Assembly: GCA_013001045.1 (NCBI GenBank)
Contig: JABDNG010000064.1
Location: 41,504 to 105,503 of the forward strand
Reading direction: 5' to 3'
Source: Woeseiaceae bacterium
GTDB lineage: Bacteria > Pseudomonadota > Gammaproteobacteria > Steroidobacterales > Woeseiaceae
Length of the DNA stretch: 64,000 nt
Part shown: one piece after another, positions 20,020 through 21,994 of the stretch
Layout: each line of letters starts with the position of its first letter
Position numbering within the stretch: the first letter of the stretch is position 1
Translations under genes and position numbers: made by a program
The notes under the pieces: model-generated
What the model saw: only the letters and a program-made list of their open reading frames with translations
Databases searched by the model: none
What the model was told of the DNA's origin: nothing

Positions 20020-20883
20020 CTAAACAGCCATCGCGTTGCCGAGTTTCTTGATAGCGTTGGCCTCAATCTGTCGAATGCGCTCAGCTGAAACGCCGTACTC
20101 CGCGGCGAGTTCGTGCAGCGTCATCTTCGTATCGCTGAGCCACCGCTGTTCGAGAATGCGGCGGGATCTGTCATCAAGAATATTGAGCGCGGACGCCATG
20201 CGTGTGCTTGCGTCCGAATGCCAGTCGTCCGCCTCGACGAGCACAGCGGGATCGGCATCCGGGCTCGGCAGGTACGCGGCCGGCGTGAAGTTGCGGTCAT
20301 CATCGGCATCCGGAGTCGGGTCAAAGATGGCATCACGAGAATGCAGTCGTTTCTCCATTTCCGTGACTTCCTTCGCGCTAACGCCCAGGTCCTTGGCGAC
20401 TGCTTCGGTTTCGGCAGCCGATAACCAGGCAAGGCTCTTTTTCGCTCTGCGAAGATTGAAAAACAGCTTACGTTGCGCCTTGGTTGTCGCAACTTTCACG
20501 ATGCGCCAGTTCTTGAGGACAAACTCGTGTATCTCTGCACGAATCCAGTGCACGGCGAATGACACCAGGCGCACGTCGTAACTCGGATCAAAGCGTTTCA
20601 CCGCCTTCATGAGACCAACGTTGCCTTCCTGGATCAGATCGTTCAGGGGCAGGCCGTAGCCTGTGTAGCCTTTGGCAATATGTACGACAAATCGCAAGTG
20701 CGCCATGACCAGGTCGCGTGCGGCATCGAGATCTTCATGATCGCGAAAGCGCGTTGACAGTGCCTGTTCATCTTCTTTCGACAGAACAGGAATGGCGCCG
20801 ACGGCCTGAATATAGGCATCGAGACTGCCTACCGGGCCTGCCAGTACCAGATCGTGGTTGTACTTTGCTACAGCGTTTGTCAT
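20020..20883 (-). CDS. rpoH: RNA polymerase sigma-32 factor
   Basis: LIQEGNVGLMKAVKRFDPSYDVRLVSFAVHWIRAEIHEFVLKNWRIVKVATTKAQRKLFFNLR (RpoH box) and C-terminal EYGVSAERIRQIEANAIKKL. Confidence 0.97.
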   Translation of the reverse strand: MTNAVAKYNHDLVLAGPVGSLDAYIQAVGAIPVLSKEDEQALSTRFRDHEDLDAARDLVMAHLRFVVHIAKGYTGYGLPLNDLIQEGNVGLMKAVKRFDPSYDVRLVSFAVHWIRAEIHEFVLKNWRIVKVATTKAQRKLFFNLRRAKKSLAWLSAAETEAVAKDLGVSAKEVTEMEKRLHSRDAIFDPTPDADDDRNFTPAAYLPSPDADPAVLVEADDWHSDASTRMASALNILDDRSRRILEQRWLSDTKMTLHELAAEYGVSAERIRQIEANAIKKLGNAMAV

Positions 20884-20910
20884 CGACTACCTCCGTGATG
20901 GCGAGCAATT

Positions 20911-20937
20911 TTAGCACTCGCAATCTTAGAGTGCTAA
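20911..20937. promoter_or_regulatory. CIRCE element (HrcA operator)
   Basis: TTAGCACTC-GCAATCTTA-GAGTGCTAA: exact match to the TTAGCACTC-N9-GAGTGCTAA consensus, starting 28 nt upstream of the rpoH start codon. Confidence 0.93.
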
Positions 20938-20953
20938 TAAATGACTGAGTTCC
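20926..20953 (-). promoter_or_regulatory. Candidate sigma-E (RpoE)-type promoter for rpoH
   Basis: Minus strand GGAACTC-N16-TCTAA, close to the GGAACTT-N15/16-TCTRA/TCAAA sigma-E consensus; the -10 lies inside the CIRCE element. Confidence 0.6.
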
Positions 20954-21028: not shown

Positions 21029-21994
21029 TTAGCGTGGCTCGATGCGCCGCATGTGTCGGGCCGTCGTGAGCCACGAGCCGAGCAGCCCCAGGAAGATGCC
21101 GAGGCCAACGATAGCGGCGCTTTCCTCGAGGCCCAGTGATGCAACAACAATGTTGCTCTGATAGAGGCCGGATAGCCGCGCGACGGGCCCCTCGAGCAGG
21201 TACAAACCGTAATGAACCAGGGCCAACGCCATAAGCCCGCCAAGCAAGCCATACCAGAGACCCGTCCAGAGAAAAGGACGTCGAACAAATGCATTGGATG
21301 CACCGATCAGCTTGGTGACTTCGATCTCATCACGACGATTTTCGATATCAAGGCGAATCGTGTTGCCGATAATGACGACGATTGCGACGCCGAGCAGCCC
21401 GGCGCCAATCCCGATGGCTTGCCTGACGATGTCCAGTATCGCGTGGAAACGCTGCACCCATTCGGTATCGACCTGCACGTGATCGATTTCCGGCAAATTA
21501 CCGATCTCTTCCTGCAGCAAAGTGAGCGACTCACTCGTATTGCCGGCTCCCGGCCTTACAACCAGGGTATGCGGCAATGGATTGCCGGGCAGCTGGCTCA
21601 GCGCATCACCGAATCCGGATTGCTTCTTGAATTCGGCGAGGGCGTCGTCGGCCGAAATAAAATCAACCTTGTCGACGTCTGCCCGTTGCCCGATAAGTCG
21701 GCCAAGTGCTGCGCCGTCATCGACCGAAATCTCCTGTTTCAGGAAGACCGAAAAGTCGAACGCATTGTCCCAGCTGCCACTCACGCTTCGCGCATTCTTG
21801 ACGACGACGTTGATGGCGGCGGGTAATGCCAGCGTGACGGCAATGACGAGGATAATCATGAAGCTCGCAAACGGCTGACGCGCGAGCCGGCCGAGCGATC
21901 CTAAAGCTGTACTAACGTGGCGAGTTACCCAGATAGACAGCGGTCCCGATGAACGAACCGGGGCTACGGCATCGGCGTTACGGGTTACTGCCAT
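21029..21994 (-). CDS. ftsX: Cell division ABC transporter permease FtsX
   Basis: FtsX topology and motifs (FSVFLKQEISVDDGAALGRLIGQRADVDKVDFISADDALAEFKKQSGFGDAL; KLIGASNAFVRRPFLWTGLWYGLLGG). ATG at 21994 overlaps the ftsE stop. Confidence 0.95.
   Translation of the reverse strand: MAVTRNADAVAPVRSSGPLSIWVTRHVSTALGSLGRLARQPFASFMIILVIAVTLALPAAINVVVKNARSVSGSWDNAFDFSVFLKQEISVDDGAALGRLIGQRADVDKVDFISADDALAEFKKQSGFGDALSQLPGNPLPHTLVVRPGAGNTSESLTLLQEEIGNLPEIDHVQVDTEWVQRFHAILDIVRQAIGIGAGLLGVAIVVIIGNTIRLDIENRRDEIEVTKLIGASNAFVRRPFLWTGLWYGLLGGLMALALVHYGLYLLEGPVARLSGLYQSNIVVASLGLEESAAIVGLGIFLGLLGSWLTTARHMRRIEPR

Follow-up and report, generated by a model that had tools for sequence, protein, structure and literature searches.

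How is sigma-32 itself controlled in a Woeseiaceae bacterium whose rpoH gene is preceded by both an HrcA operator and a sigma-E-like promoter? A preliminary description of this DNA had proposed that rpoH is repressed by HrcA and activated by envelope stress. We therefore analyzed the locus within the window, that is, the whole stretch of 64,000 nucleotides, and compared it with the rest of its source genome, a 2.6 Mb metagenome-assembled genome (MAG) of 78% completeness, with other members of the family and with Gammaproteobacteria at large. In the reading that we prefer, to which we assign a probability of roughly 0.82, the 43 bp upstream of rpoH would constitute a composite control element in which a sigma-E promoter and a probable extended −10 promoter lie under an HrcA operator. 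This reading builds on the sequence elements, on the degree to which they are conserved and on the way in which they occur together with hrcA and rpoE, and from these it predicts binding, repression, start sites and the responses to heat and envelope stress.

A predicted composite control element upstream of rpoH

The features of the locus, all on the minus strand, are as follows:

20020..20883, minus strand: rpoH (sigma-32), 287 aa; TIGR02392 rpoH_proteo, above cut-off
20890..20894, minus strand: ribosome-binding site GGAGG, from sequence
20908..20916, minus strand: predicted sigma-70-type extended −10, TGCTAAAAT, made up of the right CIRCE arm plus AAT; from conservation, function predicted
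20911..20937, minus strand: CIRCE, predicted HrcA operator, perfect, in rpoH sense TTAGCACTC-TAAGATTGC-GAGTGCTAA; from sequence match and conservation
20926..20930, minus strand: sigma-E-type −10, TCTAA, across the arm-spacer junction (2 bases from the end of the left CIRCE arm, 3 from the start of the spacer); from sequence and spacer conservation
20947..20953, minus strand: sigma-E-type −35, GGAACTC; from sequence and conserved spacing, presence follows rpoE
21029..21985, minus strand: ftsX, same-direction upstream neighbor of rpoH; TIGR00439, 340.4 bits

The CIRCE at 20911-20937 reads TTAGCACTC-GCAATCTTA-GAGTGCTAA in the window sequence and has no mismatch, as had been claimed; at three or fewer mismatches the window contains no other site, against an expectation of 0.01. 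On the minus strand, GGAACTC (20953-20947) is followed by N16 and TCTAA (20930-20926), which fits the form of a sigma-E (RpoE) promoter (GGAAC −35, TCnnA −10, about 16 bp; the consensus is of the GGAACTT-N16-TCTGA type) and places the −10 inside CIRCE exactly as first described. Read on this strand, the region runs GGAACTC-AGTCATTTATTAGCAC-TCTAAGATTGCGAGTGCTAAAATTGCTCGCCATCACGGAGGTAGTCG-ATG, with the start codon 27 nt beyond CIRCE and GGAGG at 20894-20890. The downstream gene had been named rpoH, and its product is indeed RpoH (TIGR02392, 396.9 bits against a cut-off of 323.1); the gene order ftsY-ftsE-ftsX-rpoH is the usual one. A further element emerges at the other end of the operator: TGCTAAAAT matches TGnTAnnnT, the form of a sigma-70 extended −10, and its −35 is weak (TTAGCA at 18 bp). 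From the sequence, a second, sigma-70-type promoter thus probably sits inside CIRCE.

Comparison of rpoH and groESL CIRCEs within Woeseiaceae

A scan of the rpoH upstream regions of relatives, proposed along with the preliminary description, covered 57 regions of the family, one of which belongs to a second, distant rpoH paralogue. CIRCE was present at two or fewer mismatches in 55 of the 57; in the one other orthologue, G039, the spacer between the arms is 8 nt long. CIRCE-like arms 8 instead of 9 nt apart precede rpoH in G173 as well. The second rpoH of G051 is 53% identical and has no CIRCE.

As a rule, a genome of the family has exactly two CIRCEs. Retrieval of the probable non-rpoH sites yielded 38, of which 37 lie upstream of groES and one (G034:C58) lies upstream of rpoH on a split contig. 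The groESL sites share the operator with rpoH but differ in their surroundings: They come just after a sigma-32 promoter, CTTGAAAT...CCCTATNA, their spacer has another composition, and they have no extended −10. Two differences are especially sharp. YAA (TAA or CAA) begins the spacer in 44 of 55 rpoH CIRCEs and in none of 37 groESL CIRCEs (p 4e-16), and the third base past CIRCE, equivalent to 20908, is T in 55/55 rpoH CIRCEs, where it is the most conserved base outside the operator, compared with 1/37 at groESL (p 8e-25). Because the groESL CIRCEs serve the same repressor and yet lack YAA and, in all but one case, this T, HrcA does not require these bases, which are specific to rpoH. By this comparison of sequences, YAA completes the predicted sigma-E −10 at the rpoH CIRCE, and AAT probably supplies the end of TGCTAAAAT, an extended −10 to which the right CIRCE arm contributes TGCTAA.

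The role of AAT might be read differently, namely as an extension of the HrcA site or as part of the mRNA leader, which would leave sigma-E as the sole local promoter and move any sigma-70 promoter up into the AT-rich stretch past ftsX. In most members of the family, the −35 is indeed immediately preceded by an AT-rich block in which TATAAT-like words abound, and rpoH of E. coli has several promoters. As an operator extension, however, AAT should not be so rare at groESL CIRCEs, and nothing symmetrical is found upstream of the left arm; both observations argue that AAT does not extend the operator. We regard this alternative as possible, though somewhat improbable.

Co-occurrence of the two layers with hrcA and rpoE

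To place the locus in its class, 120 gammaproteobacterial rpoH upstream regions were sampled, with each family represented by a single genome. CIRCE lies upstream of rpoH in 82 of 88 hrcA-bearing and in 7 of 32 hrcA-less genomes (Fisher p 4e-14; this and the other Fisher values assume independent families, an assumption that is only partly true, and are a guide only). Among the seven exceptions, four are MAGs of 62-85% completeness and three have imperfect sites. The −35 behaves in the same manner with respect to rpoE: GAAC stands at the right distance in 58/74 families with rpoE versus 1/15 without (p 2e-7), and A occupies the last −10 position in 52/59 cases with a −35 versus 10/30 without (p 2e-7). 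TGnTAnnnT is matched in 81 of 89 members of the class. CIRCE at rpoH is conserved in step with hrcA, and the −35 in step with rpoE; the predicted HrcA repression and sigma-E activation of rpoH are thereby strongly supported by comparison. In hrcA-less families without CIRCE, most of them without rpoE by the family cut-off, 4/25 match a loose sigma-E pattern upstream of rpoH against 0.75 expected, from which nothing firm follows about a sigma-E promoter in these families.

The same pattern is visible within Woeseiaceae, where GAAC is found 15-16 nt upstream of CIRCE at 46 rpoH loci. The sigma-E −35 is present in 45/46 rpoE-bearing versus 2/10 rpoE-less genomes (p 3e-7), a count that leaves out G034, which was found later. 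Of the two rpoE-less genomes with a −35, G044 carries an rpoE fragment at the end of a contig; in G049 and G034, both incomplete MAGs, the −35 persists although rpoE was not found. Conversely, the −35 is lost while CIRCE and AAT are kept in six genomes of one small-genome genus as well as in G057 and G031, all of which are rpoE-less; losses of rpoE within the family amount to about three events. In the small-genome genus, the right CIRCE arm at rpoH is GACTGCTAA, and the groESL sites retain GAGTGC.

These data also bear on the proposal that the housekeeping promoter TGCTAAAAT is the sole target of repression via CIRCE and that GGAAC...TCTAA is not a working sigma-E promoter. It would account for the invariance of the T past CIRCE (T30), for the retention of CIRCE and AAT in rpoE-less lineages and for the 16 of 74 rpoE-bearing families in which no −35 stands at the expected distance. 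It leaves unexplained, however, why the −35, like the YAA with which the −10 is completed, goes with the presence of rpoE, and why groESL CIRCEs have neither, and we consider it unlikely.

hrcA in the source genome and in its relatives

The preliminary description had singled out the absence of hrcA from the genome as evidence against HrcA control, and hrcA was in fact not found in the 78%-complete MAG. We attribute this to a gap in the assembly, in which the whole block is missing: No DnaK above the family cut-off was found in the MAG either, in a search that recovers this protein from E. coli and 11 further control genomes, the nadK-hrcA-grpE-dnaK region of the closest relative has no DNA match anywhere in the MAG, and hrcA is present in 55 of 61 family genomes, including 36/37 of those of good quality. 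A true loss of hrcA from this genome is very unlikely on these grounds. The rpoE gene is present (TIGR02939, 3.7e-89; G000:C18). The accompanying check for CIRCE at groESL was positive: The whole MAG has three CIRCEs, all perfect, two upstream of groES-groEL and one upstream of rpoH. The two groESL operons (G000:C43 and G000:C84) each have a perfect CIRCE, and one of them may represent either a genuine duplicate or contamination.

That CIRCE survives only as a relic after loss of hrcA from the lineage, as the missing gene by itself would suggest, is hence very improbable, given the concurrent absence of dnaK and of the surrounding region, the good-quality relatives with hrcA and the perfect state of all three sites. 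A chance palindrome is ruled out by the expectation of 0.01 per window even at three mismatches, by the lack of any CIRCE at three or fewer mismatches in 2400 trials with shuffled upstream regions of the 120 gammaproteobacterial rpoH genes, and by conservation across the class.

The gene order in relatives places hrcA divergently from nadK, with grpE and then dnaK behind hrcA (the GrpE query, an approximate E. coli GrpE sequence, served only to place grpE beside hrcA). The closest relative encodes an HrcA with both Pfam domains, DNA-binding and C-terminal, that matches the solved HrcA structure 1stz. Upstream of hrcA, no CIRCE at fewer than six mismatches occurs in 13 relatives, which argues against autoregulation via CIRCE, and no credible strict sigma-32 motif was found there in relatives. 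A TTGACC-N17-TAGCGT-like promoter is conserved instead; together with the lack of CIRCE, it suggests that hrcA is probably made constitutively and that HrcA is probably not autoregulated. The divergent nadK-hrcA region contains a strongly conserved block, CCCTTGACCG...CCAAGCCGTTGCTAGCGT, a likely constitutive promoter.

Proposed mechanism

In the composite element that we favor, rpoH would be transcribed from the sigma-E promoter GGAACTC-N16-TCTAA and probably also from the housekeeping extended −10 promoter TGCTAAAAT, with predicted starts near 20920 (leader of about 37 nt) and near 20901 (leader of about 17 nt). HrcA bound to CIRCE would block RNA polymerase and keep rpoH low; since CIRCE extends over the sigma-E −10 and most of the extended −10, both promoters should be blocked. 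Dependence of HrcA on GroE is known from Bacillus. Heat would inactivate HrcA, either directly or by diverting the GroE that it needs, as has been established for other HrcA proteins, and rpoH would be released, while envelope stress would raise rpoH via sigma-E. Campylobacter HrcA is reported to be an intrinsic thermosensor (PMC8533110). The groESL operon would be repressed by HrcA and driven by its own sigma-32 promoter: HrcA would therefore act on groESL both directly and through sigma-32, which corresponds to a coherent feed-forward loop.

Relation to known systems

The circuit had been described as unlike that of E. coli. In E. coli, rpoH lies downstream of ftsX and has a sigma-E-dependent promoter, P3, and regulation of sigma-32 is mostly translational and post-translational. 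The likeness to the window thus consists in the position after ftsX and the sigma-E-type promoter in front; the difference is that E. coli has no hrcA, for which the search of the control genome gave no match, and hence no CIRCE layer. The arrangement is, on the other hand, not peculiar to this organism: As judged from the class survey, an HrcA site over a sigma-E-type promoter at rpoH is usual in Gammaproteobacteria that keep HrcA, and the E. coli circuit looks derived by loss of the repressor layer. Taken as a whole, the wider proposition would be that HrcA control of sigma-32 is ancestral and still usual in Gammaproteobacteria with E. coli as a derived loss, and that the CIRCE arms themselves supply part of the sigma-E −10 and of the housekeeping extended −10, so that HrcA shuts both starts at one place; we consider the case for it evenly balanced. 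If it is true, one short promoter brings together heat sensing by a repressor, the sensing of envelope stress and the sigma-32 response, and if rpoH is under HrcA in most HrcA-bearing gammaproteobacterial families, the E. coli scheme, which is the taught model, is a special case.

Permina and Gelfand (2003) are said to have described HrcA-type regulons in beta-, gamma- and epsilon-proteobacteria, which may already include gammaproteobacterial rpoH. A full-text literature search, beyond whose reach that work lies, returned Geobacter as the only precedent for CIRCE at rpoH and no paper on sigma-E overlap or an embedded extended −10 at such a site. Rodionov et al. 2004 predicted a perfect CIRCE at −51 of Geobacter sulfurreducens rpoH, with HrcA predicted to control sigma-32 and groESL also a target (PMC545781). 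G. sulfurreducens belongs to a distant delta-proteobacterial group and has CIRCE also upstream of hrcA-grpE-dnaKJ, unlike the Woeseiaceae relatives with none upstream of hrcA, and the passage of that paper on the rpoH site does not mention overlap with a sigma-E promoter (PMC545781). What is probably new here is the extended −10 TGCTAAAAT formed by the right CIRCE arm and AAT, as read from sequence and conservation.

When GTDB genomes were scanned for the composite pattern GGAAC-N10..13-CIRCE with YAA, rpoH lay directly behind it in 78 of 80 loci among the matches listed; in the other two of these, the sequence ends 14 and 22 nt past the element. Cultured carriers among the matches listed include Alcanivorax jadensis, several Dyella and Rhodanobacter, Ectothiorhodospira magna, Chromatocurvus halotolerans and Aromatoleum buckelii, so that direct testing is possible. 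The composite is also carried by MAGs labeled Bordetella parapertussis and Klebsiella pneumoniae, the RpoH of which is 54-59% identical to that of the window; these labels look doubtful, that of Klebsiella above all.
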